Positions 7,401-63,200 of a stretch of 64,000 bases of DNA are shown in pieces. The stretch's first letter is position 1. Every line of letters starts with the position of its first letter. Source of the stretch: Sipunculus nudus. Lineage: Eukaryota > Annelida > Sipuncula > Golfingiida > Sipunculidae. Location: positions 8,903,676 through 8,967,675 of the forward strand of contig CM049311.1 of NCBI GenBank assembly GCA_026874595.1, given 5' to 3'. The notes beneath the pieces are model-generated. The model worked only from the letters and a program-made list of their open reading frames with translations. It was not told where the DNA came from and did no database searches. A program made the position numbers and the translations under genes.

Positions 7401-10400
7401 TCGAGTTCACGTTTCGTCCCTGTTGACCTACTTTTGACCGTTTTACGGCTCCTAAACTGAGAAATTTTCATGAAAAATATGAAATTTCATGACAAATACA
7501 CATGTACGGACTTTTTTTCGCAGTGCCTGCAGATGTTGGCCTGATTTTCGGTGTGTGGACAGATATAGACCAGTTACAGATCGAGTTTACGTTTCGTCCC
7601 GGTTGACCTACTTTTGACCGTTTTACTGCTCCTAAACTTAGAACATTTCATGAAAAATAGAAATATTCATGACAGATACACATGTACAGACTTTTTTTCG
7701 CAATGCCTGCAGATATTGGCCTAATTTTTGGTGTGTGGGCAGATATAGACCAGTTACAGATCGAGTTCGCGTTTCGTCCCGGTTGACCTACTTTTGACCG
7801 TTTTAAGGCTCCTGAACATAGAAAATTTCATGAAAAATATGAAATTTCATGACAAATACACATGTACGGACCTTTTTTGGCAATGCCTGCAGATATTGGC
7901 CTGATTTTTGGTGTTGGCAGATATTGACCAGTTACAGATGGAGTTCGCATTTCGTCCTGGTTGACCTACTTTTGACTGTTTTACAGCTCCTGAACATAGA
8001 AAATATCTTGTAAAATATATATTTTCATGACAAATACACTTGTACAGACTTTTCTTCACAATACCTGCAGATATTGGCCTGATTTTTGGTGTGTGGGCAG
8101 ATAATGACCAGTTACAGATCAAGTTCACGTTTATCCCAGTTGACCTATTTTTGACCGTTTGACGGTGCTCTAACATAAAATTTTCATAAAAAGGTGCACA
8201 TGTATGGACTTTTTTTTGCAGTGCCTGCAGATTCAGGCCTGATTTTTGGTGTGTAGGCAGATAATGACCAGTTACAGATCGAGTTCTTGTTTTGTCTCAG
8301 TTGACCTACTTTTGACCATTTGACTGCTCCTGAACATAGAAATTTTCATGAAAAATATAAATTTTCATAACAAATGCATATGTACTGACTTTTTTGTACT
8401 GATAATGACAGTTACAGATCGAGTTTGCATTTCATCCCGGTTGACCTACTTTTGATTGTTTTACGGCTCCTAAACATAGAAAATTTCATGAAAGACAGAA
8501 ATTTTTATGGAAAATGCACATGTATGGACTTTTTTTCACAATGCCTGCATATACTGGCATGATTTTTGGTGTGTTGCTTGATAATGACCCGTTACAGATC
8601 GAGTTTGCATTTTGCCCTTGTTGACCTACTTTTGACCATACGACACCTCCTGAACTTAAAAAATTTTCCAAATTTTACAAATGTTTCTAATTTGCCCAAG
8701 GCGGGGGCATTCGTGTCGTTCCGACACATCTAGTTTCACTTAACTCTACAGTTAAAAGGATAGTTTTCCCCTCTTCAGCCAGTGTTGATCATCTGTTTAT
8801 CATTGCCTTGATATTGACTGTGTCTATTTGTTCATAAATTTTACACATCTATTTAACTTGTTTCCAAAATGCAAAAAAAATTTTTTTTGTGATGGCGCCA
8901 TCCATATTTGTTGACGCAGTAACAGAAGCTAAATCATTCAGTTCTCCAAGTTAATTAACTATATAGTTATTTTGAAGCCATCTAATTATGCCAAATCATT
9001 ATTTGGTAGAAATTGAATCAAACCTCAAGGAATTACGTTGGTTTATTATAACAGCATCTTGACAGAATCAACTTTTTGTTTGTGTCATAATTTAATGAAT
9101 CAAGGGTCTGTTAATAAGATGAAGATGTTGAAGAACTGTTCTATTAAATATTAAAATCCCAGTTTTAATAGGGCAAATATACAGAAGCTCAGCCTGCTGT
9201 CATGAATCTAGAATTCTTATTTCCATTTTTTTAAAGAGTAATTTGAAGAATGCTGTAGTTCCATCAAATGTCAGGCAATTCTTTGGTTTTTAGCTCAGCT
9301 GACTATAAGTCATCTGAGCTATAGTCGTGGTCCATCCTTTGTCCATCTGTCCATCAGTAGATGTGGCACGTTTTGAAACCAGAAGACCTAGGAATCCGAA
9401 ATTTGGCATTATGTTAGAAGTCCCCAAGATCTCCTACCAAGCCAAAAACTCGGTCTTTGCAACTTCGTTCTTTGAGAAATTAGGGAAAAACCTCAATTCT
9501 TTCTACCCTAACACCCCCCCCCTGCCAGTTCCTCCCACCAACACCACCAATTATATTGCAATACATGGTTTGTTATTGTCAACTGTAATTACTGAAGTTT
9601 TCAGATGCTCTAATGTATTTGCATTTTGTATATCCAAGACCGCACTCTTGATCACTACAGCCTTGCCTAGGTAACCTTATTAGCGATGCAGCACTGGCAG
9701 AACACCCCTGCTGTAATAAACATACACTTATTCTCATGGGCTGTACCCTAATATCCCCCCCCCCACTACCACCACCATCACCAATTATATTGCAATTCAT
9801 GGTTTGTTATTGTCAACTGTATTTCTTTAAATGTAAAGCTGTTTTTGATCTAATGTGCACAACTTTTCTTGAAATATTAATTCTAGAAGTAATCCAAGAG
9901 ATGCCACGTTGTTCTGATGTAGCATTCTTAAGAAATCATTTCCTCTTAAATAATTAAACAAAATATAATTTAACCCATCAGTAGGCATAATTTGATAATA
10001 TATGAAACAAATCATGGATAAATAATGGTGCAATTTAAATTTGTGAATTCTGGAGTGTTATTTCCATATATTTATTGCTTTGCAATTTAAAAAAATATAT
10101 ATTTTATAAAAAAAAAAAGAAATATATCTTTGTGCATTATGTGATGTTACCTGACTAAATTAAGTATAAATGTTGATGCAATTTTGATTTTTGAATCAAT
10201 TTAAATATTCAGATATATATGTTATACTGTAAATATATAGTAAAATTTATAAACTTAAAAAAAAATGAATTAACAAAGAAAAAATAGGATCTAATGCAAA
10301 TATTTGTTCATTATTTTCCTGTCTCAGTAGAATGGAAATTAAAGTTATTTACTTTGTTTTCCATCTCTCTGCCTGTTTTTAAATATTTAAAATAATTTCA

Positions 10401-16600: not shown

Positions 16601-19600
16601 AAGGATAGGCGTTTCTTTGACAGAAATGAATGTTTGACAACAGAGGTGTTATGTTTTACCTGACACAGCAGACAGCGTGGCTGTTCAACTGATTGCCTCC
16701 CGGGGGGCCTAACATGCAATCGTGTTAATATCTGTTCACTAGTCTTTAGCTCAGTGGATTATAAGTCATCTGAGCTATAGTCATGTTCCTTTGTCCATTA
16801 ACAGAGCACGTTTTGAAACTCCAAAATCCCTGGTCCTTCATGTTAATCTCATCAACATAAATATGTTAATCTCATCAGTGTTAATGTTAATTGGGTACCC
16901 CTGATGTTTGGTCTGCCAAGAGCACACACAGATAATAACAGGATAATGTATAAATACATTGTATGTGGTTATTAACCCCACATATGTCAGGGGTGCAACG
17001 GACAAAGAATCCCTTCATTTCAATGGCCAGTATATGGGGCAGAGTTCACCGTACCCCTCTGACCAATGGAATGAATGGGGTGACGTGCTTGATTCTACCC
17101 CAATGAGAGAGAGAGAACAAAAGCCTGCATATGATTTTGTGTGGGACAGATTACTTTTTTGCGACTCGGCACCTGAGACAGTTTCTGTGTATGGACATCT
17201 TTATCATATACTGGATAGGAGAAGAAAAAAAAATGGTTACCTTAGTTACCAAATTTGTGTGTTGTGGCTGTGTGCCACAAGGGACACAAACCTGTATTAG
17301 TGCATGGGAGAGTAACAGAACTGTATAGTGTATATTTCAATGGGCTACCAAGCACTTTCGACCGCCATGCAAATTGACAGGCACCTCAAAGAACATCTGA
17401 TTGTGCTGGTGATTCCTGCAATGTGATCGGTAAAATAATACACAGGAGGAATTGCACAGAGACAACACTGCCTGGTGGCCAAACCTAAAAGGCAACCATG
17501 GTGTCTCACAGCAGTTAGTGGAGTGAATAGTTGTGAAATGTAATCACTGCTTATGGAGTGTAAAACCTACATATGATGGGAGTATTATGGTATACCCACA
17601 GTCCATCCGTTAACTTTTAGTGTCTCTGCAATCACTTACCCGGGCTTTGACGGATTATCACGAAACTCACCAAAACTTCTTACCAACAGATTAACTAGCC
17701 CAAGTTTGATTATTGGCAACATCCATGCATAATTAATAAGGTCAGGGGTCCCTAGGCTACTTTGTGGTGTCGTGGAGATAACTTATGAAGACTATGAAGG
17801 TTTTTTATAAAACTCATCAGAAATGTTAATCAATTTATTAAATGCATATTTAATGAGGTCAGAGGCCACCGCACTTTGGAGGCACCTTGGTGACTTACCC
17901 GAAATCCTATGGATTTTCATGAAACTCATTTTAGATATTTACCAATGAGTTTCTCACCTGAATTACCTTCTCATCTCTAAATTCACGCATATTTAATGAG
18001 GTCAGAGGTGACCAGATACATGTTGGGCGTATTATGCATGTTTGTGGTACTCTTGTTTTCTCTCTCTCATAAACCATGCCTTAACAATTAAAAGTTACAC
18101 CTGGTAATAATATTGACCACAAAACTATTAATTATTCTATGATAGTCCCTGACCTGGGCAACCTCCAGGAACTGCACCTTCCTGTAATTAATGAGAGTTT
18201 TACTTTGGCAGAAAGTTTGGCCACTCAAAGCAGGGACCACTGTTATTATAAATTATAAATGTTAAGTTGAGCACCACAGACTTTTCGTCAATTAGTAACT
18301 TTTCATTTAGTCTGAGATGGTTAGGGGTGTTTTTAGCATAATTATTTGTTGATAAAATGTTGATTTTTATTTTACAGCAGCACACTTGGACAGTCCGCTC
18401 CTGAAAGAACTCCAGGAAGAGGCTGCCAAAGAACAAGAGATGGACGAAGGTATCGATGAACAAGATGGTGGCAAACATTCATTTCCATCGGCAACACCAG
18501 CATGTGACCTCCCGGGGTGTGGGCCCCTGAGGTCATCACACGTGAGCAGTGCCGATGTCCATAGCATGATCAGTGAAACAATTCACCGTCAGAACCTTAG
18601 TGAAACCCAGCGCAGCCTCAGTGATACCACCTTGGCCTCAGCCAGTGCCAAAGCAAGTGTGAAATACAGTGATGAAACGCCAAGAGATACGTCGTACGGT
18701 ATGAAAGGTGGGGGAAGTGGAGACACTGGTCCTGCTCAGTCCATAAGTGAAGGAACTGCAAGCGTGACTGAGGGACCCTGCAGCTCACCTGTTCAAGAGA
18801 CAGACCCGCAAGAACCAGGCAGCTATACAGGTCAAATAGAATCTGAAAAATCGGAGATGGGTGGAGAAAAATTTGGAACAGAAAGAGCAGAATCGGAGAC
18901 GACAGGTGCGCAATCAGAGGAGACAGAACAAAGTAGTCATAGTCCAGCTGACACTTCAGGTAACACAGAAACAGTCCCTGTGTCTCAAGGAAGTGAGGAA
19001 CAGACAGACACACCAAGCCATGCAGATCTAAACACATCAACAGCCCCTGACAGGGATGCTGCAGAAGCATCAGGCAGCCGCTGGCAGAAAAGAGAACCAG
19101 AGAATGAACAACAAGCCCCTGCTGAGGAAGAGTACCACTACTTCAGAGCGATCGAGAACAGCGATCCTGATACCAACGATCGAGGTGAGAATAATGATTA
19201 TGATACCAAAGTTTGAGGTAAAATTAGTGATCATGATACCAACAATTGAGATAAAAAAAAGTGATCATTTTGCTAATGATGGAGGTAAAATAGTGATCAT
19301 TATACAATCAATCGAGGTAAGAAATGTGATCCTGACACCAACAATTGAGGTAAGAATACTAATCCTGATACAAATGATCAAGGTGAGAATAATGGTCATG
19401 ATACCAGCAATCGAGGTTAGAATAATGATCATGATACCAAAATTTGAGGTAAAGATTAGTGATCCTGATACCAACAATGAAGGTAAGAATAGTGATCATG
19501 ATACCAACAATCAAATTGAGAATAGTGATCCTGATACCAACAATTGAGGAAAGATTAGTGATACTGATACCAACAATCATGGTAAGAATAGGGATCCTGA

Positions 19601-22600
19601 TTCCAACAATAATGGTAAGAATAGTGATCCTGATTCCAACAATCATGATAAGAATAGTGATCCTGATTCCAACAATCATGGAAAGAATAGTGATCCTGGT
19701 ACCAACAATCATGGTAAGAATAGGGATCCTGATTCCAACAATAATGGTAAGAATAGTGATCCTGGTACCAACAATCATGGTAAGAATAGGGATCCTGATA
19801 CCAACAATTGAGGAAAGATAAGTGATCCTGATTCCAACAATCATGATAAGAATAGTGATCCTGATTTCAACAATCATGGTAAGAATAGTGATCATGATTC
19901 CAACAATCAAGGTGAGAATAAGGATCCTGATACCAACAATTGAGGAAAGATTAGTGATCCTGATACCAACAATAAAGGTAAGAGTACCGTAGTGATCCTG
20001 ATACCAACAATCATGGTAAGAATAGGGATCCTGATTTCAACAATCATGATAAGAATAGTGATCCTGATTTCAACAATCATGGTAAGAATAGGGATCCTGA
20101 TTCCAACAATAATGGTAAGAATAGTGATCCTGATTCCAACAATCATGATAAGAATAGTGATCCTGATTTCAACAATCATGGTAAGAATAGGGATCCTGAT
20201 TCCAACAATCATGATAAGAATAGCGATCCTGATTTCAACAATCATGGTAAGAATAGTGATCCTGATACCAACAATCATGGTAAGAATAGTGATCCTGATA
20301 CCAACAGTCATGGAAATAATGATCCTGACACCAACAATTGAGGTAAGAATACTGATCCTGATACAAATTATCAAGGTGAGAATAATGGTCATGATACCAA
20401 AATTCGAGAAAAGATTAGTGATCCTGATACCAACAATCATGGTAAGAATAGTGATCATGATACCAACAATCGAGGTGAGAATAGTGATCATGATACCAAC
20501 AATCGAGGTGAGAATAGTGATCATGATACCAACAATCGAGGTGAGAATAGTGATCCTGATACCAACAATTGTGGAAAGATTAGTGATCCTGATACCAACA
20601 ATCATGGTAAGAAGAGGGATCCTGATTCCAACAATAATTGTAAGAATAGGGATCCTGATACCAACAATCATGATAAGAATAGTGATCCTGATTCCAACAA
20701 TCAAGATGAGAATAGTGATCATGAAACCAACAATCAAGTTTAGAAAAGGGATCCTGATACCAACAATCATGGTAAGAATAGTGATCCTGATTTCAACAAT
20801 CATGGTAAGAATAGTGATTCTGATACCAACAATCATGGTAAGAATATTGATCATGATACCAACAATCATGATAAGAATAGTGATCATGATACCAACAATC
20901 GAGGTGAGAATAGTGATCATGATACCAACAATCGAGGTGAGAATAGTGATCCTGATACCAACAATTGTGGAAAGATTAGTGATCCTGATACCAACAATCA
21001 TGGTAAGAAGAGGGATCCTGATTCCAACAATAATTGTAAGAATAGGGATCCTGATACCAACAATCATGATAAGAATAGTGATCCTGATTCCAACAATCAA
21101 GATGAGAATAGTGATCATGAAACCAACAATCAAGGTTAGAAAAGGGATCCTGATACCAACAATCATGGTAAGAATAGTGATCCTGATTTCAACAATCATG
21201 GTAAGAATAGTGATTCTGATACCAACAATCATAGTAAGAATAGTGATCCTGATTTCAACAATCATGGTAAGAATAGTGATTCTGATTCCAACAATCAAGA
21301 TGAGAATAGTGATCATGAAACCAACAATCAAGGTTAGAAAAGGGATCCTGATACCAACAATCATGGTAAGAATATTGATCATGATACCAACAATCATGAT
21401 AAGAATAGTGATCATGATACCAACAATCGAGGTGAGAATAGTGATCATGATACCAACAATCGAGGTGAGAATAGTGATCCTGATACCAACAATTGTGGAA
21501 AGATTAGTGATCCTGATTTCAACAATCATGGTAAGAATAGTGATTCTGATACCAACAATCATGGTAAGAATATTGATCCTGATTCCAACAATCATGGTAA
21601 GAATAGTGATCCTGATTTCAACAATCATGATAAGAATAGTGATCCTGATACCAACAATCATGGTAAGAATAGGGATCCTGTTTCCAACAATCAAGGTGAG
21701 AATAGGGATCCTGATACCAACAATCATGGTAAGAATAGTGATCCTGATTTCAACAATCATGGTAAGTATAGTGATCCTGATTCCAAAAATCATGGTAAGA
21801 ATATTGATCCTGATTCCAACAATCAAGGTAAGAATAGTGATCATGATACCAACAATCGAGGTGAGAATAGTGATCAATATACCAACAATTGAGGAAAGAT
21901 TAGTGATCCTGATACCAACAATAAAGGTAAGAGTACCGTAGTGATCCTGATACCAACAATCGTGGTCAGAATAGTGATCCTGATACCAACAATCAGGATA
22001 AGAATAGTGATCCTGATTTCAACAATCATGGTAAGAATAGGGATCCTGATTCCAACAATAATGGTAAGAATAGTGATCCTGATTCCAACAATCATGATAA
22101 GAATAGTGATCCTGATTTCAACAATCATGGTAAGAATAGGGATCCTGATTCCAACAATCATGATAAGAATAGTGATCCTGATTTCAACAATCATGGTAAG
22201 AATATTGATCCTGATTCCAACAATCAAGGAAAGAATAGTGATCATGATACCAACAATCGAGGTGAGAATAGGGATCCTGATTCCAACAATCATGATAAGA
22301 ATAGTGATCCTGATTTCAACAATCATGGTAAGAATAGGGATCCTGATTCCAACAATAATGGTAAGAATAGTGATCCTGATTCCAACAATCATGATAAGAA
22401 TAGTGATCCTGATTTCAACAATCATGGTAAGAATAGGGATCCTGATTCAAACAATCATGATAAGAATAGTGATCCTGATTTCAACAATCATGGTAAGAAT
22501 ATTGATCCTGATTCCAACAATCAAGGTAAGAATAGTGATCATGATACCAACAATCGAGGTGAGAATAGTGATCAATATACCAACAATTGAGGAAAGATTA

Positions 22601-25600
22601 GTGATCCTGATACCAACAATAAAGGTAAGAGTACCGTAGTGATCCTGATACCAACAATCGAGGTCAGAATAGTGATCCTGATACCAACAATCAGGATAAG
22701 AATAGTGATCCTGATTTCAACAATCATGGTAAGAATAGGGATCCTGATTCCAACAATAATGGTAAGAATAGTGATCCTGATTCCAACAATCATGATAAGA
22801 ATAGTGATCCTGATTTCAACAATCATGGTAAGAAAAGGGATCCTGATTCCAACAATCATGATAAGAATAGTGATCCTGATTTCAACAATCATGGTAAGAA
22901 TAGTGATCTTGATACCAACAATCATGGTAAGAATAGTGATCCTGATTTCAACAATCATGGTAAGTATAGTGATCCTGATTCCAAAAATCATGGTAAGAAT
23001 ATTGATCCTGATTCCAACAATCAAGGTAAGAATAGTGATCATGATACCAACAATCGAGGTGAGAATAGTGATCAATATACCAACAATTGAGGAAAGATTA
23101 GTGATCCTGATACCAACAATAAAGGTAAGAGTACTGTAGTGATCCTGATACCAACAATCGTGGTCAGAATAGTGATCCTGATACCAATAATCAGGATAAG
23201 AATAGTGATCCTGATTTCAACAATCATGGTAAGAATAGGGATCCTGATTCCAACAATAATGGTAAGAATAGTGATCCTGATTCCAACAATCATGATAAGA
23301 ATAGTGATCCTGATTTCAACAATCATGGTAAGAATAGGGATCCTGATTCCAACAATAATGGTAAGAATAGTGATCCTGATTTCAACAATCATGATAAGAA
23401 TAGTGATCCTGATTTCAACAATCATGATAAGAATAGTGATCCTGATTCCAACAATCATGGTCAGAATAGGGATCCTGATTCCAACAATAATGGTAAGAAT
23501 AGTGATCCTGATTCCAACAATCATGATAAGAAAAGTGATCCTGATTTCAACAATCATGGTAAGAATAGGGATCCTGATTCAAACAATAATGGTAAGAATA
23601 GTGATCCTGATTTCAACAATCATGGTAAGAATAGGGATCCTGATTCCAACAATAATGGTAAGAATAGTGATCCTGATTTCAACAATCATGATAAGAATAG
23701 TGATCCTGATTTCAACAATCATGATAAGAATAGTGATCCTGATTTCAACAATCATGATAAGAATAGTGATCCTGATTTCAACAATCATGATAAGAATAGT
23801 GATCCTGATTTCAACAATCATGGTAAGAATAGTGATCCTGAATTCAACAATCATGGTAAGAATAGTGATCCTGATTCCAACAATCATGATAAGAATAGTG
23901 ATCCTGATTCCAACAATCATGATTAGAATAGGGATCCTGATTTCAACAATCATGGTAAGAATAGGGATCCTGATTCCAACAATAATGGTAAGAATAGTGA
24001 TCCTGATTCCAACAATCATGATAAGAATAGTGATCCTGATTTCAACAATCATGGTAAGAATAGGGATCCTGATTCCAACAATAATGGTAAGAATAGTGAT
24101 CCTGATTCCAACAATCATGATAAGAATAGTGATCCTGATTCCAACAATCATGGTAAGAATAGGGATCCTGATTCCAACAATCATGATAAGAATAGTGATC
24201 CTGATTTCAACAATCATGGTAAGAATAGGGATCCTGATTCCAACAATAATGGTAAGAATAGTGATCCTGATTCCAACAATCATGATAAGAATAATGATCA
24301 TGATACCAACAATCATGGTAAGAATAGGGATCCTGATTCCAACAATCATGATAAGAATAGTGATCCTGATTTCAACAATCATGGTAAGAATATTGATCCT
24401 GATTCCAACAATCAAGGTAAGAATAGTGATCATGATACCAACAATCGAGGTGAGAATAGTGATCAATATACCAACAATTGAGGAAAGATTAGTGATCCTG
24501 ATACCAACAATAAAGGTAAGAGTACCGTAGTGATCCTGATACCAACAATCGTGGTCAGAATAGTGATCCTGATACCAACAATCAGGATAAGAATAGTGAT
24601 CCTGATACCAACAATCAGGATAAGAATAGTGATCCTGATTTCAACAATCATGGTAAGAATAGTGATCTTGATACCAACAATCATGGTAAGAATAGTGATC
24701 CTGATTTCAACAATCATGGTAAGTATAGTGATCCTGATTCCAAAAATCATGGTAAGAATATTGATCCTGATTCCAACAATCAAGGTAAGAATAGTGATCA
24801 TGATACCAACAATCGAGGTGAGAATAGTGATCAATATACCAACAATTGAGGAAAGATTAGTGATCCTGATACCAACAATAAAGGTAAGAGTACTGTAGTG
24901 ATCCTGATACCAACAATCGTGGTCAGAATAGTGATCCTGATACCAATAATCAGGATAAGAATAGTGATCCTGATTTCAACAATCATGGTAAGAATAGGGA
25001 TCCTGATTCCAACAATAATGGTAAGAATAGTGATCCTGATTCCAACAATCATGATAAGAATAGTGATCCTGATTTCAACAATCATGGTAAGAATAGGGAT
25101 CCTGATTCCAACAATAATGGTAAGAATAGTGATCCTGATTTCAACAATCATGATAAGAATAGTGATCCTGATTTCAACAATCATGATAAGAATAGTGATC
25201 CTGATTCCAACAATCATGGTCAGAATAGGGATCCTGATTCCAACAATAATGGTAAGAATAGTGATCCTGATTCCAACAATCATGATAAGAAAAGTGATCC
25301 TGATTTCAACAATCATGGTAAGAATAGGGATCCTGATTCAAACAATAATGGTAAGAATAGTGATCCTGATTTCAACAATCATGGTAAGAATAGGGATCCT
25401 GATTCCAACAATAATGGTAAGAATAGTGATCCTGATTTCAACAATCATGATAAGAATAGTGATCCTGATTTCAACAATCATGATAAGAATAGTGATCCTG
25501 ATTTCAACAATCATGATAAGAATAGTGATCCTGATTTCAACAATCATGATAAGAATAGTGATCCTGATTTCAACAATCATGGTAAGAATAGTGATCCTGA

Positions 25601-28600
25601 ATTCAACAATCATGGTAAGAATAGTGATCCTGATTCCAACAATCATGATAAGAATAGTGATCCTGATTCCAACAATCATGATAAGAATAGGGATCCTGAT
25701 TTCAACAATCATGGTAAGAATAGGGATCCTGATTCCAACAATAATGGTAAGAATAGTGATCCTGATTCCAACAATCATGATAAGAATAGTGATCCTGATT
25801 TCAACAATCATGGTAAGAATAGGGATCCTGATTCCAACAATAATGGTAAGAATAGTGATCCTGATTCCAACAATCATGATAAGAATAGTGATCCTGATTC
25901 CAACAATCATGGTAAGAATAGGGATCCTGATTCCAACAATCATGATAAGAATAGTGATCCTGATTTCAACAATCATGGTAAGAATAGGGATCCTGATTCC
26001 AACAATAATGGTAAGAATAGTGATCCTGATTCCAACAATCATGATAAGAATAATGATCATGATACCAACAATCATGGTAAGAATAGGGATCCTGATTCCA
26101 ACAATCATGATAAGAATAGTGATCCTGATTTCAACAATCATGGTAAGAATATTGATCCTGATTCCAACAATCAAGGTAAGAATAGTGATCATGATACCAA
26201 CAATCGAGGTGAGAATAGTGATCAATATACCAACAATTGAGGAAAGATTAGTGATCCTGATACCAACAATAAAGGTAAGAGTACCGTAGTGATCCTGATA
26301 CCAACAATCGTGGTCAGAATAGTGATCCTGATACCAACAATCAGGATAAGAATAGTGATCCTGATACCAACAATCAGGATAAGAATAGTGATCCTGATTT
26401 CAACAATCATGGTAAGAATAGGGATCCTGATTCCAACAATAATGGTAAGAATAGTGATCCTGATTCCAACAATCATGATAAGAATAGTGATCCTGATTTC
26501 AACAATCATGGTAAGAATAGTGATCCTGATTCCAACAATCATGATAAGAATAGTGATCCTGATTTCAACAATCATGGTAAGAATAGTGATCCTGATACCA
26601 ACAATTATGGTAAGAATAGTGATCCTGATACCAACAGTCATGGAAATAATGATCCTGACACCAACAATTGAGGTAAGAATACTGATCCTGATACAAATTA
26701 TCAAGGTGAGAATAATGGTCATGATACCAAAATTCGAGGAAAGATTAGTGATCCTGATACCAACAATCATGGTAAGAATAGTGATCATGATACCAACAAT
26801 CGAGGTGAGAATAGTGATCATGATACCAACAATCGAGGTGAGAATAGTGATCATGATACCAACAATCGAGGTGAGAATAGTGATCCTGATACCAACAATT
26901 GTGGAAAGATTAGTGATCCTGATACCAACAATCATGGTAAGAAGAGGGATCCTGATTCCAACAATAATTGTAAGAATAGGGATCCTGATACCAACAATCA
27001 TGATAAGAATAGTGATCCTGATTCCAACAATCAAGATGAGAATAGTGATCATGAAACCAACAATCAAGGTTAGAAAAGGGATCCTGATACCAACAATCAT
27101 GGTAAGAATAGTGATCCTGATTTCAACAATCATGATAAGAATAGTGATCCTGATTTCAACAATCATGGTAAGAATAGGGATCCTGATTCCAACAATAATG
27201 GTAAGAATAGTGATCCTGATTCCAACAATCATGATAAGAATAGTGATCCTGATTTCAACAATCATGGTAAGAATAGGGATCCTGATTCCAACAATCATGA
27301 TAAGAATAGCGATCCTGATTTCAACAATCATGGTAAGAATAGTGATCCTGATACCAACAATCATGGTAAGAATAGTGATCCTGATACCAACAGTCATGGA
27401 AATAATGATCCTGACACCAACAATTGAGGTAAGAATACTGATCCTGATACAAATTATCAAGGTGAGAATAATGGTCATGATACCAAAATTCGAGAAAAGA
27501 TTAGTGATCCTGATACCAACAATCATGGTAAGAATAGTGATCATGATACCAACAATCGAGGTGAGAATAGTGATCATGATACCAACAATCGAGGTGAGAA
27601 TAGTGATCATGATACCAACAATCGAGGTGAGAATAGTGATCCTGATACCAACAATTGTGGAAAGATTAGTGATCCTGATACCAACAATCATGGTAAGAAG
27701 AGGGATCCTGATTCCAACAATAATTGTAAGAATAGGGATCCTGATACCAACAATCATGATAAGAATAGTGATCCTGATTCCAACAATCAAGATGAGAATA
27801 GTGATCATGGAACCAACAATCAAGGTTAGAAAAGGGATCCTGATACCAACAATCATGGTAAGAATAGTGATCCTGATTTCAACAATCATGGTAAGAATAG
27901 TGATTCTGATACCAACAATCATGGTAAGAATATTGATCATGATACCAACAATCATGATAAGAATAGTGATCATGATACCAACAATCGAGGTGAGAATAGT
28001 GATCATGATACCAACAATCGAGGTGAGAATAGTGATCCTGATACCAACAATTGTGGAAAGATTAGTGATCCTGATACCAACAATCATGGTAAGAAGAGGG
28101 ATCCTGATTCCAACAATAATTGTAAGAATAGGGATCCTGATACCAACAATCATGATAAGAATAGTGATCCTGATTCCAACAATCAAGATGAGAATAGTGA
28201 TCATGAAACCAACAATCAAGGTTAGAAAAGGGATCCTGATACCAACAATCATGGTAAGAATAGTGATCCTGATTTCAACAATCATGGTAAGAATAGTGAT
28301 TCTGATACCAACAATCATGGTAAGAATATTGATCATGATACCAACAATCATGATAAGAATAGTGATCATGATACCAACAATCGAGGTGAGAATAGTGATC
28401 ATGATACCAACAATCGAGGTGAGAATAGTGATCCTGATACCAACAATTGTGGAAAGATTAGTGATCCTGATTTCAACAATCATGGTAAGAATAGTGATTC
28501 TGATACCAACAATCATGGTAAGAATATTGATCCTGATTCCAACAATCATGGTAAGAATAGTGATCCTGATTTCAACAATCATGATAAGAATAGTGATCCT

Positions 28601-31600
28601 GATACCAACAATCATGGTAAGAATAGGGATCCTGTTTCCAACAATCAAGGTGAGAATAGGGATCCTGATACCAACAATCATGGTAAGAATAGTGATCCTG
28701 ATTTCAACAATCATGGTAAGTATAGTGATCCTGATTCCAAAAATCATGGTAAGAATATTGATCCTGATTCCAACAATCAAGGTAAGAATAGTGATCATGA
28801 TACCAACAATCGAGGTGAGAATAGTGATCAATATACCAACAATTGAGGAAAGATTAGTGATCCTGATACCAACAATAAAGGTAAGAGTACCGTAGTGATC
28901 CTGATACCAACAATCGTGGTCAGAATAGTAATCCTGATACCAACAATCAGGATAAGAATAGTGATCCTGATTTCAACAATCATGGTAAGAATAGTGATCC
29001 TGATACCAACAATCAAGTTAAGAATAGTGATCCTGATTTCAACAATCATGGTTAGTATAGTGATCCTGATTCCAAAAATCATGGTAAGAATATTGATCCT
29101 GATTCCAACAATCAAGGTAAGAATAGTGATCATGTTACCAACAATCGAGGTGAGAATAGTGATCAATATACCAACAATTGAGGAAAGATTAGTGATCCTG
29201 ATACCAACAATAAAGGTAAGAGTACCGTAGTGATCCTGATACCAACAATCGTGGTCAGAATAGTGATCCTGATACCAACAATCAGGATAAGAATAGTGAT
29301 CCTGATTTCAACAATCATGGTAATAATAGGGATCCTGATTCCAACAATAATGGTAAGAATAGTGATCCTGATTCCAACAATCATGATAAGAATAGTGATC
29401 CTGATTTCAACAATCATGGTAAGAATAGGGATCCTGATTCCAACAATCATGATAAGAATAGTGATCCTGATTCCAACAATCATGATAAGAAAAGTGATCC
29501 TGATTTCAACAATCATGGTAAGAATAGGGATCCTGATTCCAACAATCATGATAAGAATAGTGATCCTGATTTCAACAATCATGGTAAGAATAGTGATCCT
29601 GATACCAACAATCATGGTAAGAATAGTGATCCTGATTTCAACAATCATGGTTAGTATAGTGATCCTGATTCCAAAAATCATGGTAAGAATATTGATCCTG
29701 ATTCCAACAATCAAGGTAAGAATAGTGATCATGATACCAACAATCGAGGTGAGAATAGTGATCAATATACCAACAATTGAGGAAAGATTAGTGATCCTGA
29801 TACCAACAATAAAGGTAAGAGTACCGTAGTGATCCTGATACCAACAATCGTGGTCAGAATAGTGATCCTGATACCAACAATCAGGATAAGAATAGTGATC
29901 CTGATTTCAACAATCATGGTAAGAATAGGGATCCTGATTCCAACAATAATGGTAAGAATAGTGATCCTGATTCCAACAATCATGATAAGAATAGTGATCC
30001 TGATTTCAACAATCATGGTAAGAATAGGGATCCTGATTCCAACAATCATGATAAGAATAGTGATCCTGATTTCAACAATCATGGTAAGAATATTGATCCT
30101 GATTCCAACAATCAAGGAAAGAATAGTGATCATGATACCAACAATCGAGGTGAGAATAGGGATCCTGATTCCAACAATCATGATAAGAATAGTGATCCTG
30201 ATTTCAACAATCATGGTAAGAATAGGGATCCTGATTCCAACAATAATGGTAAGAATAGTGATCCTGATTCCAACAATCATGATAAGAATAGTGATCCTGA
30301 TTTCAACAATCATGGTAAGAATAGGGATCCTGATTCAAACAATCATGATAAGAATAGTGATCCTGATTTCAACAATCATGGTAAGAATATTGATCCTGAT
30401 TCCAACAATCAAGGTAAGAATAGTGATCATGATACCAACAATCGAGGTGAGAATAGTGATCAATATACCAACAATTGAGGAAAGATTAGTGATCCTGATA
30501 CCAACAATAAAGGTAAGAGTACTGTAGTGATCCTGATACCAACAATCGTGGTCAGAATAGTGATCCTGATACCAATAATCAGGATAAGAATAGTGATCCT
30601 GATTTCAACAATCATGGTAAGAATAGGGATCCTGATTCCAACAATAATGGTAAGAATAGTGATCCTGATTCCAACAATCATGATAAGAATAGTGATCCTG
30701 ATTTCAACAATCATGGTAAGAAAAGGGATCCTGATTCCAACAATCATGATAAGAATAGTGATCCTGATTTCAACAATCATGGTAAGAATAGTGATCTTGA
30801 TACCAACAATCATGGTAAGAATAGTGATCCTGATTTCAACAATCATGGTAAGTATAGTGATCCTGATTCCAAAAATCATGGTAAGAATATTGATCCTGAT
30901 TCCAACAATCAAGGTAAGAATAGTGATCATGATACCAACAATCGAGGTGAGAATAGTGATCAATATACCAACAATTGAGGAAAGATTAGTGATCCTGATA
31001 CCAACAATAAAGGTAAGAGTACTGTAGTGATCCTGATACCAACAATCGTGGTCAGAATAGTGATCCTGATACCAATAATCAGGATAAGAATAGTGATCCT
31101 GATTTCAACAATCATGGTAAGAATAGGGATCCTGATTCCAACAATAATGGTAAGAATAGTGATCCTGATTCCAACAATCATGATAAGAATAGTGATCCTG
31201 ATTTCAACAATCATGGTAAGAATAGGGATCCTGATTCCAACAATAATGGTAAGAATAGTGATCCTGATTTCAACAATCATGATAAGAATAGTGATCCTGA
31301 TTTCAACAATCATGATAAGAATAGTGATCCTGATTCCAACAATCATGGTCAGAATAGGGATCCTGATTCCAACAATAATGGTAAGAATAGTGATCCTGAT
31401 TCCAACAATCATGATAAGAAAAGTGATCCTGATTTCAACAATCATGGTAAGAATAGGGATCCTGATTCAAACAATAATGGTAAGAATAGTGATCCTGATT
31501 TCAACAATCATGGTAAGAATAGGGATCCTGATTCCAACAATAATGGTAAGAATAGTGATCCTGATTCCAACAATCATGATAAGAATAGTGATCCTGATTT

Positions 31601-34600
31601 CAACAATCATGGTAAGAATAGGGATCCTGATTCCAACAATAATGGTAAGAATAGTGATCCTGATTCCAACAATCATGATAAGAATAGTGATCATGATACC
31701 AACAATCATGGTAAGAATAGGGATCCTGATTCCAACAATCATGATAAGAATAGTGATCCTGATTTCAACAATCATGGTAAGAATATTGATCCTGATTCCA
31801 ACAATCAAGGTAAGAATAGTGATCATGATACCAACAATCGAGGTGAGAATAGTGATCAATATACCAACAATTGAGGAAAGATTAGTGATCCTGATACCAA
31901 CAATAAAGGTAAGAGTACCGTAGTGATCCTGATACCAACAATCGTGGTCAGAATAGTGATCCTGATACCAACAATCAGGATAAGAATAGTGATCCTGATA
32001 CCAACAATCAGGATAAGAATAGTGATCCTGATTTCAACAATCATGGTAAGAATAGGGATCCTGATTCCAACAATAATGGTAAGAATAGTGATCCTGATTC
32101 CAACAATCATGATAAGAATAGTGATCCTGATTTCAACAATCATGGTAAGAATAGTGATCCTGATTCCAACAATCATGATAAGAATAGTGATCCTGATTTC
32201 AACAATCATGGTAAGAATAGTGATCCTGATACCAACAATTATGGTAAGAATAGTGATCCTGATACCAACAGTCATGGAAATAATGATCCTGACACCAACA
32301 ATTGAGGTAAGAATACTGATCCTGATACAAATTATCAAGGTGAGAATAATGGTCATGATACCAAAATTCGAGGAAAGATTAGTGATCCTGATACCAACAA
32401 TCATGGTAAGAATAGTGATCATGATACCAACAATCGAGGTGAGAATAGTGATCATGATACCAACAATCGAGGTGAGAATAGTGATCATGATACCAACAAT
32501 CGAGGTGAGAATAGTGATCCTGATACCAACAATTGTGGAAAGATTAGTGATCCTGATACCAACAATCATGGTAAGAAGAGGGATCCTGATTCCAACAATA
32601 ATTGTAAGAATAGGGATCCTGATACCAACAATCATGATAAGAATAGTGATCCTGATTCCAACAATCAAGATGAGAATAGTGATCATGAAACCAACAATCA
32701 AGGTTAGAAAAGGGATCCTGATACCAACAATCATGGTAAGAATAGTGATCCTGATTTCAACAATCATGGTAAGAATAGTGATTCTGATACCAACAATCAT
32801 GGTAAGAATATTGATCATGATACCAACAATCATGATAAGAATAGTGATCATGATACCAACAATCGAGGTGAGAATAGTGATCATGATACCAACAATCGAT
32901 GTGAGAATAGTGATCCTGATACCAACAATTGTGGAAAGATTAGTGATCCTGATACCAACAATCATGGTAAGAAGAGGGATCCTGATTTCAACAATCATGG
33001 TAAGAATAGGGATCCTGATACCAACAATCATGGTAAGAATAGGGATCCTGATTCCAACAATCAAGATGAGAATAGTGATCATGAAACCAACAATCAAGGT
33101 TAGAAAAGGGATCCTGATACCAACAATCATGGTAAGAATAGTGATCCTGATTTCAACAATCATGGTAAGAATAGTGATTCTGATACCAACAATCATGGTA
33201 AGAATATTGATCCTGATTCCAACAATCATGGTAAGAATAGTGATCCTGATTTCAACAATCATGATAAGAATAGTGATCCTGATAACAACAATCATGGTTA
33301 GAATAGGGATCCTGTTTCCAACAATCAAGGTGAGAATAGGGATCCTGATACCAACAATCATGGTAAGAATAGTGATCCTGATTTCAACAATCATGGTAAG
33401 TATAGTGATCCTGATTCCAAAAATCATGGTAAGAATATTGATCCTGATTCCAACAATCAAGGTAAGAATAGTGATCATGATACCAACAATCGAGGTGAGA
33501 ATAGTGATCCTGATACCAACAATTGAGGAAAGATTAGTGATCCTGATACCAACAATCAAGGTAAGAGTAGTGATCCTGATACCAACAATCATGGAAAAAA
33601 GTGATCCTGATTCCAACAACCATGGTAAGAATAGGGATCCTGATTCCAAAAATCATGGTAAGAATAGTGATCCTGATACCAACAATCATGGTAAGAATAG
33701 TGATCCTGATTCCAACAATCATGGTAAGAATAGTGATCCTGATTCCAACAATCATGGTAAGAATAGTGATCCTGATACCAACAATCATAGTAAGAATAGT
33801 GATCCTGATCCCAACAATCATGATAAGAATAGTGATCCTGATTCCAACAAATCATGGTAAGAATAGTGATCCTGATTCCAACAATCATGGTAAGAATAGT
33901 GATCCTGATACCAACAGTCATGATGAGAATAGTGATCCTGATTCCAACAATCATGGCAAGAATCGTAATCCTGATTCCAACAACCATGGTAAGAATAGGG
34001 ATCCTGATTCCAACAATCATTGTAAGAATAGTGATCTTGATTCCAACAATCATGGTAAGAATAGTGATTATGATTTGAACAGTCAAGATGAGAAAAGTGA
34101 TCCTGATACTATTAAATGAGGTAAGAATAGTGATCCTGGTACAGTTGATACCAACTTTGAGGTGGGAATGGCAATCTAGAATTCCAGATTTTAATGGAGA
34201 ATAGCTATCCTGATAACAACATTTCAGGTGAGAATAGTAATCCCAGTAACAACATACATCGTATGAACAGGTATCCAGATGCCAAAGACTGAGGTGAGAG
34301 TGGTGATCCTGAGACCAGCAATACCAACATTGAGGTTTGGATTAACAATATAGGTCCCAACATTCTACTTAAGATTAGCCGTCCTGATACCAACATTCAA
34401 GGTATAAATACTGATCCCTGTACCTTCTGTAACAAAACTGTGATTAATTCCTAACTCACACTTAACTTGGTTTGTTAAAGTCATTTCATAAAATGGTATG
34501 AGTAACTTAAAATATTCCATTGTGGTCATGTAACTTAATAATTTCTTTAAATGACCAAAACTTCTTGCTTAGTTCACAAAATGGTAAACTTACTTGGGTC

Positions 34601-37600
34601 TACTATTTAATGTTACAAAATCTTAATTTAGATTGCCTTTCTTAGTCATATCACCAAATCAACTTTGACAAAACTGTTACATAAAATGGTTGTCCTGCTT
34701 CACGTCACAACACTTTTAACTTTATATCACCCACCAAGGCTACATCCTGAAATTATTACTTAATGTAGTTGTTATGATTACCTCCTGCATTATAAACATT
34801 GTTATTAGCTTCATCTGTTGTAATGTCATTCCCTGTGTCGATTGTTCTACGTCATGTCTGATCTCGTTTCAGTGCTTACGGTTCACCTGGACAAGAGGAT
34901 AACTTTGAACACATTGAAGAAAGAACTTGAGAATTTCCTTGGAGTCAGCTCAGACCACTTTAATGTAAGAAATGATTAATTCTGCCTAGGAGGTTATGTT
35001 TCAGCCCCACTCTCTTTGTTTCTTTGTTAATATGTGTGTTTTTTCATTGGATTATACAAAAATTACTCAACTGATTTTTATGAAACTTCTTTAAAAAGTT
35101 GGGACAAAGGCCAGGAGAGAACCCTTTACATTTTGATAGAGATTTAATAACTATGTGTACAGCTCTTTTCCAGCATCTAATCTACTCCCTGTTATGGTAC
35201 CAGATCTTTGTTTCTTCACTGATCCTTACTGTTACTATGGTAACCTAATACAAACACTGGAGGGAACAGCAAATGAACTGTGCTGAAGTCCCATTAAAAG
35301 CTCACCCAGCTCACTCTTGTCCGGGGAAGACTTCATTAATTTGAATGGTGATATAGATTTCCCATTTTGTAATCCTTGCAAGTATCCATTTTAATTAAGG
35401 CATATATACTTCAAAAGGGTCTACAGTATGTGAGACTAATATACTTGATTAATTAGAATTCTCAACACAATAGTATCCTGAAACATGAACCATATGGGAC
35501 TGTCAGGTAATTAGCAGTATGAAAATTAGCTTAATTAAATGTGGTTAAAAAATGGCCTTAAATTGACCAAATTCCTTAGATTCAAGTTTTTTCAGTGGTC
35601 ATAACACATTGATGTAAGTAGTTTTAGATGGTTTTAGTTCATCAGGTTAAGCTACAGCCACAGGATAATCACTTGTAACAGGTCTGCCTAGATCATGCTG
35701 TAACATCTTCAGTGTTGCTGAATTTAATTAAAAAATTTGAACACAACAACTGTTGATGGGTCAGTGGGTGAAAGTTTTAATTAAAGCAAGATGGTCTTAA
35801 TCAGATTTGAGTATTGCACTCCTTAATATTTTTTTTTTATTGTTCTAACATGTGTATGTATATATTTATTGAATTCTCTTAGGAACTGGTCTGAGGTCAT
35901 TCTGTTTTATTGTAGGTGTACAAAGTTTACTCAAACAACCAGGAGTTTGAAGCCACACGGTTAAACGAGACTCTGTCTTCATATGTTGATGACAGCAAGG
36001 TTAGTGATTTTTAAACATATTTATATATAAACAGTAAAACATTGCTTGACAACCACCACAGTTCAGTGACCACCTCAAGATAACGACCACTTTTTCACGG
36101 TCCCAATTCTTTTTTCCCCTTTATATTAGATATCACTTAGATGACAGTATTGAAAATGCAACCACTTAATTGATGTCCCGTAGATGGTTGTAATTTTGAG
36201 GTTTCACTGTATTTACAGGATAAAAGTGAATTATATAATAAATATGGTATATATGGTGTGACTAAAGTAAAGTACCAAATGTATTTTAATATTTGTGATA
36301 TTTTATATACACATATGTTAGTTTTTATACACACATAAATATGGTAAATCTAATTTGAATTTTTAATGTTAATTAAGTAAAGTGCATCTTACAAGTACTT
36401 ACTCATAGTTATGTTTTGATGGCAGCAATTTATAAAAAAAATTATGTACCTTAAAATAATAAAATACATTTTGGAACTGTCTGATTATTAATACACTTAT
36501 TAGTTTAATCAAAAATAATCTTTTATTTTGTTCTATTTAGTTGATGGTCAAATATGGCCGAGCACTGAAAAAGGGAGAGTATCGAATCAAGATCTTTCAG
36601 CTCCTCATCGATGAACCTGAGGTTAGTGATTACATACATCTTGTATCAGCCCTCATCTCAGTGTAGCATTATTATGACTGCTGGAAGCGTGTTTAGTGTA
36701 ATAACTGTATGAGAATAAAGATTAATGAATATAAGAGTAATTAATAATTGACGCTGCGAAAGTGCAATGTTGTATTGCACCATATGGTATCGGATAAACA
36801 TCTAGTCTGACCTGAAGGATGGATGACCCTTATATAGTTCAACCACTCACTTGCTACCCAAGTAAGTGACTTGACTTGAGATAAGCAGATGTGTTTTCTC
36901 TGAATTTTACAAAAACTACACAACTGGTAGGCCTAAAATGAGTCATGATACAAGCTATATTTAGGAATGCAGTGCAGTGGTCTTCCATCATGTTGCATAC
37001 ATATCATGGTAAACAGCCCATAATCTCAACATTAAGCTAAGAATAATGAATTCACACAAAAGACAACATGCAAGCCATATTTGTATTCATGCAGTCAAAA
37101 ATTTAACAACCATGTGGAGGGATTTAACAATATGCTGACTTAAAATGGAATTTTCCTAACTATTAAATGTTAGGTTTTGTTAGAAAGTATACTAAATAAG
37201 CTAAAGATTGGTCTGGTTTATGTCAAGTGAGGAGTTGTCAGAAATGATGAAAATATTTGCATCCTGATAGAGCCTTAAAATGTGTTCCTTGCTGAAGGAT
37301 GTAACGGTGACAGCCAGAGAGCTGGTCGTGAACTCTCTTTATGTGAGAGGGATGAAATGGGGCTAGTACGGGGAACAGTCTTTTGCCCCATCTGTATAAT
37401 TTGTTAACCTTTTTCCCTTCTCTGAATCTCAGTTTAATTAATGCATTATAATACCTTAAAAGCAAAGAATAATTTTAGTGATCGATTTTTATATATTTTT
37501 GCGAAAGCAAAACTTGTTAACATTTATTTGATTCCTGTAAACTAACACAAGTCAACCTAGCTCTTCTTTGTATTTAGTATTCAGTATTCAGAGAACCATG

Positions 37601-40600: not shown

Positions 40601-43600
40601 TGGAAATAGGTGGAAATAAAAGTCTTTGTAAATTTGAAAATTCCTCAGGGAAAACTCATGAAAAAAAAATTGGGATTTTGCTGAAGCCTTGCACATACAT
40701 CAAAGAATGAGAGACACTATGTATATGGGACAAAACTTTTGGTTTTAATAATGAAATGGTAAAAATGGGATTACTGTATATAAAATGATGTAAAACATTT
40801 TTAGCTCAGCTGACTGAAAGTCATCTGAGCTATAGCGATCACTCTTTGTCCGTCGTCCGTCTGTCCGTCTGTCTGTCTGTCCGTCTGTCCGTCTGTCCGT
40901 CCGTTAACCAGGCACAAATTGTAACCGCTGGACCTAGAACCTTGTAACTTGGCATTCTGAGAGGTCCATGAAAAATCTCCTTGGAAACCAGAAATTAGGT
41001 CTCTGTTACCCATATCCTTCGAGCTATGGGGCCCCAAAGTACCCCCCAGAAAAGTCCAAAATTTCATACAAAAACTTCAATATCTCATGAACTACTTGAC
41101 TGATGGTCATGATTTTTGGCATAACTATTGATCATGAGAGGTTCCAACAGTTCCTTAAGACTGGTGGCGCCACCTGTATTTTTCGATTTTTTACGAATTT
41201 TTTTCTCTATTTTTGAGACCTTTAAAAATGTGAACATCTGTTAACAAGGCACAAATCGTAATGACTGGACTTAGAATCTTCATTCTCGACACACTGAGAG
41301 ACCTATGAAAAGTCTCCATGGAAACCAGAAATTAGGTCTCTGTTACCCATATCCTTCCAGCTATGGGGCCCCAAACTACCCCCCCCCCCCCAGAAAAGTA
41401 AAAAATTTCAAACAAAAACTTCAATTTCTCATTAAATACTTGACTGATGGTCATGATTTGTGTCATACATATTGATCATGAGATGTTCCATCACTTCCTG
41501 CAGACTGGTGGCGCCACCTGTATCGTTCAATTTTTTACGAATTTTTTTCTCTATTTTTGATACCTTTCAAAATGTAAACATCTGTTAACAAGGCACAAAT
41601 TGTAAAGACTGGACCTAGAATCTTCATTCTTGACACACTGAGAGACCTTTGAAAAGTCTCCATGGAAACCAGAAATTAGGTCTCTGTTACCCATATTCTT
41701 CGAGCTATGGAGCCCCTAAGTACCCCCAAGAAAAGTAAAAAATTTCATACAAAAACTTCAATATCTCATTAACTACTTGACTGATGGTCATGATTTGTGG
41801 CATAACTATTGATCATGAGATGTGTCATCACTTCCTGTAGACTGGTGGTGCCACCTTTATTGTTCGATTTTTTACGATTTTTTCCTCTATTTTTGAGACC
41901 TTTCAGGATGCTGTCATCTGTTAGCATGGCACAAATCGTAACGACTGGACCTAGAATCTTCATTCTTGACACACTGAGAGGTCCATGAAAAATATCCTTG
42001 GAAACCAGAAATTAGGTCTCTGTTAACCATATCCTTCGAGCTATGGGGCCCCAAAGTACCCCCCCCCCCCCCCCAGAGTAGTCAAAAATTTCATACAAAA
42101 ACTTCAATATCTCAATAACTACATCACTGATGGTCATGATTTTTGGCATACATATTGATTATGAAATGTTCCATCAGTTCCTGCAGACTTGTGGCGCCAC
42201 CTGTATTGTTTGATTTTTTACGATTTTTTCCTCTGTTTTTGAGACCTTTAAGGATGCTGTCATCTGTTAACGTGGCACAAATCATAACGACTGGACCTAG
42301 AATCTTCATTCACGACACACTGAGAGACCTATGAAAAGTCTCCATGGAAACCAAAATTAGGTCTCTGTTACCCATTTTCTTCGAGCTATGGAGCCCTAAA
42401 GTACCCCCAAGAAAAGTAAAAAATTTCATACAAAAACTTCAATATCTCATTAACTACTTGAATGATGTTCATGATTTGTGGCATAACTATTGATAATGAG
42501 ATGTGTCATCTGTTCCTGCAGACTGGTGGCACCACCTGTATCTTTCGATTTTTTACGATTTTTTCCTCTATTTTTGAGACCTTTAAGGATGCTGTCATCT
42601 GTTAGCATGGCACAAATCGTAACGACTGGACCTAGAATCTTCATTCTCAACACACTAGAAGACCTATGAAAAGTCTCCATGGAAACCAGAAATTAGGTCT
42701 CTGTTACCCATATCCTTTGAGCTATGGGGCCCCAAAGTACCCCCCCAGAGTAGTCAAAAATTTCATACAAAAACTTCAATATCTAAATAACTACATCACT
42801 GATGTTCATGATTTTTGGCATACATATTGATTATGAGATGTTCCATCAGTTCCTGCAGACTGGTGGCGTCACCTATATTGTTTGATTTTTTTACGATTTC
42901 TTCCTCTATTTTTGAGACCTTTAAGGATGCTGTCATCTGTTACCATGGCACAAATCGTAACGACTGGACCTAGAATCTTCATTCTCAATACACTAGGAGA
43001 CCTATGAAAAGTCTCCATGGAAACCAGAAATTAGGTCTCTGTTACCCATATCCTTCGAGCTATGGGGCCCCAAAGTACCCCTCAGAGTAGTCAAAAATTT
43101 CATACAAAAACTTCAATATCTCAAAAACTACATCACTGATGGTCATGATTTGTGGCATAACTATTGATCAAGAGGTGTTCCATCAGTTCCTGCAGACTGG
43201 TGGCACAACCTGTATTTGTTCGGGGTTTTTTTTACGAATGTTTTCTCTATTTTTGAGACCTTTAAAGATATGAACATCTGTTAACAGGGCACAAATCATA
43301 AAAACTGGACCTAGAATCTTCATTCATGACACACAGGGAGACCCATGAAAATTCTCCATGGAAACCTGAAATTAGGTCTCTGTTACCCATATTCTTTAGG
43401 CTGTATGGCTCCAAAATACCCCCCAGAATAATGGAAAATTTGATACAAAAAGTGCAGTATCTCAATAACTACAACACTGATGGTCATGATTTTTGCATAC
43501 ATATTGATCATGAGCTGTTCCATCAGTTTCTGCAGAGAGGGTGCGCCACCTCTATTTTTTTCAAATTTTTACGAATTTTTTTTCTCTTTTTTCGAGACCT

Positions 43601-62639: not shown

Positions 62640-63200
62640 TTCAATACAGGCATGTACATAATGAGTACTCTGATACAGGCACTTGCATTATGGGTACTCT
62701 AATACCGGCACTTGCATTATTGGTATTCCGATACAGGCACTTGCATTATGGGTACTCTAATACCGGCACTTGCATTATGGGTACTCTGATACAGGCACTT
62801 GCATTATGGGTACTCAGATACAGGCACTTGCATTATGGGTACTCCGATACAGGCACTTGCATTATGGTTACTCCGATACAGGAACTTGCATTATGGGTAC
62901 TCTGATACAGGCACTTGCATTATGGGTACTCTGATACAGGCACTTGCATTATGGGTACTCTGATACAGGCACTTGCATTATGGGTACTCTGATACAGGCA
63001 CTTGCATTATGGGTACTCTGATACAGGCACTTGTATTATGGGTACTCTGATACAGGCACTTGCATTATGGGTATTCCAATACAGGCACTTGCATTATGGG
63101 TACTCCAATACAGGCACTAGCTTTATGGGTACTCCAATACAGGCACTTGCATTATGGGTACTCTGATACAGGCACCTGCATTATGGGTACTCCAATACAG
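62640..63200 (+). repeat. 29-bp minisatellite, about 19 units
   Basis: The unit is GATACAGGCACTTGCATTAT plus GGGTACTCT. Variants include AATACCGG, TATTCCAA, TACTCCGA and CAGGAACTTG; the first and last units are the most diverged. It lies in the intron after exon K, about 490 bp past its donor. The unit has no splice-site likeness to exon K. Confidence 0.95.

Follow-up and report, generated by a model that had tools for sequence, protein, structure and literature searches.

Minisatellites whose unit spans an exon-intron boundary have been described in amphioxus under the name of 'mirage' minisatellites, in Adh3 and in the globin genes BflGb6 and BflGb9 (PMC3087553); TnC and, as imperfect copies, PGBD5 have been added to them (PMC3902484). 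In the available text of these papers the unit sizes are 10-72 bp (Adh3) or 150-160 bp, the BflGb6 mirage has 6 and 3 copies in its two haplotypes, length instability, germline or somatic, is reported for Adh3, and the mirages are reported without disturbance of normal splicing (PMC3087553, PMC3902484). In human segmental duplications, tandem repeats of about 30 bp at exon-intron boundaries can activate cryptic sites; they average about 4 copies and 160 bp, around half of them lie in coding exons and at some boundaries new introns were formed (PMC2812944, in the part available). Of what was consulted in search of a second intron filled from its own donor junction, these human repeats come nearest. 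The RdRp gene of potato gained an intron by tandem duplication of a gene stretch, a process in which splice signals can be carried along, according to the section consulted (PMC4974935). Among the matches listed in the literature searched we found no second intron filled from its own donor junction, and the available portions of PMC4732748, PMC3045353, PMC4039745 and PMC2206037 describe none.

We have analyzed a stretch of 64,000 nucleotides (the window) in which a 33-bp tandem array of about 460 units, 15.2 kb in length, fills most of the 15.7-kb intron that follows one exon of USP47, here exon C. By its sequence anatomy, this array fits the mirage description on four testable features. As in the published amphioxus cases, the unit spans the exon-intron boundary (unit 0 consists of 31 bases of the exon and the GT), the authentic junction is the edge unit, judged by frame and orthologs, many units but not all keep AG/GT (AGGT in 97 of 460, GT in register in 307), and the core is homogenised while the array boundaries escape. 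Unlike what is described for them, the array consists of 33 bp repeated about 460 times and contains kilobase block duplications. The duplicated side is the acceptor in BflGb6 and the donor both in BflGb9 and in USP47. The mirages in the papers cited are known in cephalochordates; the USP47 array lies in a genome of 1.43 Gb (153 contigs, the one carrying the window measuring 88.9 Mb). Amphioxus genomes are near 0.5 Gb, and this difference in size makes a host outside the cephalochordates likely; a tree of 15 rows, with no named amphioxus among them, does not assign a place to the USP47 of the window. With the human boundary repeats, as far as they are described in the text cited, the array shares a minisatellite-sized unit at an exon-intron boundary, but in USP47 there is no sign of a new intron, and the end of the exon seems to be unaltered. 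Tandem copying of a gene stretch is likewise common to this locus and to what is given for potato RdRp, but again no intron gain is seen in USP47.

A preliminary description of this locus had considered an array built from the host's own splice junction unusual. That judgement is right, but the kind had been published, as the available text on amphioxus mirages documents (PMC3087553, PMC3902484). Measured against those accounts, the USP47 array is a giant case of a known but little-known kind, far exceeding the 3 and 6 copies of BflGb6. What is new is its size, its block structure and probably its lineage, the class itself being already known. If the host is not a cephalochordate, splice-junction minisatellites exist beyond amphioxus and can reach 15 kb in a conserved gene.

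The host gene and its exons

Homology identifies the plus-strand gene of the window as USP47, represented by its C-terminal half. Pfam USP47_C matches two exons downstream of exon C (E 2.3e-11 and 1e-13), and the other five pieces in the Pfam scan, exon C included, gave nothing above the curated cut-off. Of 2492 candidates in a protein search with the joined exons, 460 were hits at E <= 1e-5, and the best 120 of these 460 were mostly named USP47. The host gene given in the preliminary description is borne out by these matches. With the end of exon C as the only query there was no match at E 0.01 among 61 candidates, and a short-fragment protein search gave 5 relatives at 46-59% identity, none of them close. 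Exons with standard splice signals could be modelled between about 1290 and 62150 and also further on; the tblastn query for exons E to K was a human USP47 sequence. The parts of the model that frame the array are as follows.

18378-19184, plus strand: putative USP47 exon C, a linker exon of 807 bp (open frame; splice signals; end collinear with orthologs)
Splice signals of exon C, plus strand: acceptor TTTTACAG, donor GAG|GTGAGA
19182-19190, plus strand: 5' splice site presumed to be the real one, GAG|GTGAGA, with the intron beginning at 19185 (frame into exon D)
34870-34964, plus strand: acceptor CAG (34870-34872, reading TTTCAG) and predicted exon D (34873-34964)
35917-62150, plus strand: further predicted USP47 exons E (35917-35999), F, G, H, I, J and K (end 62150) (tblastn, Pfam, splice signals)

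Exons C and D join in frame, G|TG giving Val, across an intron of 15,688 bp. The predicted junction is composed of the exon C end ...AACGATCGAG and the exon D start TGCTTACGG. Frame, homology and the amphioxus precedent together suggest that the donor at 19185 is the one used. Exons x2 and C are out of frame with each other, so a small exon seems to be missing from the model between 13884 and 18378.

Extent and growth of the array

19154-19186, plus strand: unit 0, made up of 31 exonic bases and the GT of the donor (offset-33 comparison)
19187-34428, plus strand: intronic 33-bp array, about 460 units, both ends decayed (TRF, wrap-around alignment)
19989-33511, plus strand: core of near-identical duplicated blocks, except for gaps at 21255-21331 and 33033-33129 (ungapped self-scan)
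19214-19216, plus strand: in-frame TGA that any extended exon C reads, 30 nt into the intron
19380-19388, plus strand: first decoy donor (AAGGTGAGA) to equal or exceed the exon C donor in score, located 198 bp further downstream

TRF reports a single 33-bp array at 19284-34138, with 448.6 copies and 87% matches. The wrap-around alignment splits 19130-34450 into 463 pieces; 461 of these fall inside 19148-34428, and 430 of all 463 measure exactly 33 bp. Without two segments at the 5' end and twelve at the 3' end, the pieces agree with the consensus at 91% on average. Both methods agree with the preliminary description, which had placed about 450 units of 33 bp in the intron after exon C, at 19158-34425, coordinates that are right to within a few bases. 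It had also put the start of the array inside exon C, where it does lie, but the repeat reaches slightly further into the exon, from 19154.

The ungapped scan (at least 330 bp, at least 98.5% identity) assigned 87.6% of 19186-34428 to duplicate blocks. The longest pair, 21685-23752 and 29573-31640, extends over 2068 bp with 11 mismatches (0.53% divergent). Only the edges, 19186-19988 and 33512-34428, and the two gaps of 77 and 97 bp fall outside such blocks, and the edge units resemble the consensus of the centre less closely (0.80 and 0.75 vs. 0.92). A young core between old edges is the usual picture of unequal exchange, which would be the process behind it.

Origin of the repeated unit

When the sequence is compared with itself at a shift of 33 bp, 0 of 9 bases match at 19145-19153 and 24 of 32 at 19154-19185; homology to the array begins sharply inside exon C, at 19154. 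Read from 19163, the junction unit contains 22 exon and 11 intron bases. The exon bases 19163-19184 agree at 20 of 22 positions with a consensus built from the first 12 intronic units and at 18 of 22 with that of the whole array. Since the best background match at the same locus is 15 of 22 (ungapped, plus strand, about 148 kb outside), the exonic resemblance is no matter of chance. The main claim of the preliminary description, that the repeated unit is the gene's own exon-intron junction, is sustained by the 20 of 22 match and by the start of homology at 19154. Consensus units of the 5' edge match the junction at 29 of 33 positions, those of the centre at 27 and those of the decayed 3' edge at 26. 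Since the 3' edge is not nearer to the junction than the centre, the support from the edges comes from the 5' edge only.

The end of exon C has the length found in other phyla. The spacing between YF and xVxxDKR is 14 residues in the window and in P0001 (the scorpion Centruroides), P0109 (the annelid Owenia), P0019 and P0065, 15 in P0079 (Saccostrea), P0121 (Tegillarca) and P0118, and 17 in the fish P0125; the count covers ten proteins, of which P0122 and P0124 fell outside the search pattern, P0122 giving 14 by eye. Besides, Owenia USP47 and the window have a DP.T..R pattern in common at this end. As the exon C end is of ancestral length, the array most likely derives from it. That the exon end seeded the array, rather than the exon absorbing a repeat, is a reading well supported by these comparisons. 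In the vertebrate USP47 models P0115 and P0049 the sequence changes directly before LMVHVDKR, the place of the intron in the window. This hints that an exon border is placed there too and that the intron position may be old and conserved.

Donor-like sites in the array

We scored every unit as a donor, a check that the preliminary description had proposed, with a matrix of human donor frequencies that may not suit this animal. For these counts 460 segments from 19217 on were taken, the last of which, at 34429, is past the array. On the human matrix the exon C donor scores 10.75; of ten other USP47 donors, one reaches 12.4 and the remaining nine lie between 6.2 and 11.2. On this same matrix 47 of the 460 units equal or outscore the exon C donor, vs. 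1.8 sites at that level in first-order Markov versions of the array (mean of 20, maximum 3), and in 44 of 460 the energy of the U1 duplex is at least as good as for the exon C donor.

Most later units had been said to keep a donor at the same place, and these donors to be near-equal. A GT in register is indeed found in 307 of the 460 intronic units, but in 176 of these 307 it stands in the weaker context ATG|GTAAGA. As to equality, hundreds of units are donor-like, but measured against the exon C donor near-equality holds for the 47 just mentioned; 267 of 460 reach a matrix score of at least 6.1, about that of the weakest real USP47 donor. The array can be taken as a natural experiment in splice-site choice: a single donor has to be selected by the spliceosome where hundreds of close copies exist, with exon, intron and acceptor held constant and 37 of the 460 units carrying the identical 9-base donor GAGGTGAGA.

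Predicted RNA accessibility is 0.025 for the real donor and has a median of 0.021 for 82 strong decoys, with no clear difference; for the 176 ATGGTAAGA units it is somewhat lower, 0.007. The idea that RNA structure hides the decoys was dropped; the predicted accessibility is low for the real donor and the decoys alike. The preliminary description had inferred that the spliceosome must choose the first donor or that isoforms arise. Given the in-frame TGA at 19214-19216, later donors would lead to truncated products, and that inference has to be narrowed. The same TGA led us to reject an array-encoded repeat protein extending exon C.

Probable history of the array and other explanations

We favor, with considerable though not full confidence, a mirage-type minisatellite that arose by duplication of the exon C junction and grew by blocks, with the first donor used, the rest acting as decoys and the whole tolerated, probably without function. 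The initial event would have been a tandem duplication of the 33 bp that straddle the 3' end of exon C and the adjoining donor. The first slippage plausibly took place between two GAGAA motifs exactly 33 bp apart, one exonic (19154-19158) and the other within the donor GTGAGAA (19187-19191). The array would then have expanded through block duplication or unequal exchange, in recent times by blocks as long as 2 kb, with decay at both edges, as the pattern described above suggests. The upstream donor adjacent to the exon is presumably used, since it is the one defined by exon C, and the downstream copies would be decoys, following the amphioxus precedent. Use of a decoy would bring in the stop codon at once. 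Under this history the array would have no function of its own, and its effect on splicing is probably nil.

The order of events could be the reverse: an unrelated minisatellite would have appeared in the intron, and a shift of the donor would afterwards have made its first unit part of the exon. Tandem arrays are common along the locus in general (55 after merging, in 164 kb), and the USP47 linker is poorly conserved in sequence, which makes a replaced exon end conceivable. Nevertheless, the length of this end equals that of orthologs from other phyla (14 residues in P0001, P0109, P0019 and P0065), the DP.T..R pattern is common to Owenia and the window, and a swallowed unit of 31 bp should have lengthened the linker unless the old sequence was replaced exactly. 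We regard this origin as unlikely. It is highly improbable that the length of the array was inflated by mis-assembled reads: short reads would have difficulty with blocks as long as 2068 bp that diverge by 0.5%, but the contig is 88.9 Mb long in an assembly of 153 contigs, mismatches separate the duplicate blocks and both edges of the array pass into unique sequence.

Going back to the duplicated junction, the copies might serve a purpose if their U1-like sites recruited U1 snRNP, either buffering this long gene against premature polyadenylation or acting as a length-dependent switch towards isoforms that contain a stop. Sites with a matrix score of at least 8.2 number 265 in the array vs. 11.8 expected from the Markov versions, the duplex energies of strong units are about those of the real donor, and GT is in register in 55-85% of the units in every 20-unit bin. 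Donor positions +4 and +5 hardly vary (455 and 449 of 459), and a TGA right behind the real donor would suit an isoform switch. Against this, position +1 (G in 345 of 459, A in 110) is the fifth and +3 the fourth most variable of the 33 columns, column counts being crude owing to the shared ancestry of duplicated blocks. With +1 lost in one unit out of four, the pattern is hardly the one expected under selection for donors, and there is little to suggest that the decoys are kept by selection; the predicted accessibility is low throughout (0.025 for the real donor, decoy medians of 0.021 and 0.007). Such a function is in our opinion quite unlikely. Its more specific form, a U1 platform in USP47 that titrates or retains U1 snRNP and in which array length sets the share of stop-containing transcripts like a rheostat of splice choice, is very unlikely; if true, it would be a natural, length-variable control of splice-site choice in this gene. 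Recursive splicing, in which each AG|GT would act as acceptor first and as donor next, could draw on the 97 units with AGGT. However, the units are A-rich and have no polypyrimidine tract; upstream of an array AG the pyrimidine fraction is at most 0.61, in the decayed 3' end, and at the exon D acceptor it is 0.67. Pyrimidine tracts being absent from the array, we have rejected this mechanism as scarcely credible.

Tandem repeats in the surroundings

Among the 55 merged TRF arrays (period of at least 10) in the 164 kb around USP47, only the array described here has an exon of the model within 100 bp, and the second nearest array is 169 bp away; the test used 13 modelled exons, and exons beyond the model could change the count. 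In 160 kb of other DNA from the same genome, the 33-bp unit, compared at every third rotation, found no ungapped match above 23 of 33.

Other repeats are found along the locus. The window contains an array of 8.6 copies of a 337-bp unit (40903-43810), and 5.6 copies of a 338-bp period lie about 29 kb upstream of the window (L007:166-2018); both perhaps belong to one dispersed satellite family. Arrays with a 180-bp period at 7205-8535 and 44862-45768 have consensus units that share GACCAGTTACAGATCGAGTTC; this repeat occurs in two introns of USP47. Finally, a 29-bp minisatellite at 62644-63200 (19.2 copies, 92% match) begins about 494 bp after exon K, not at its junction.
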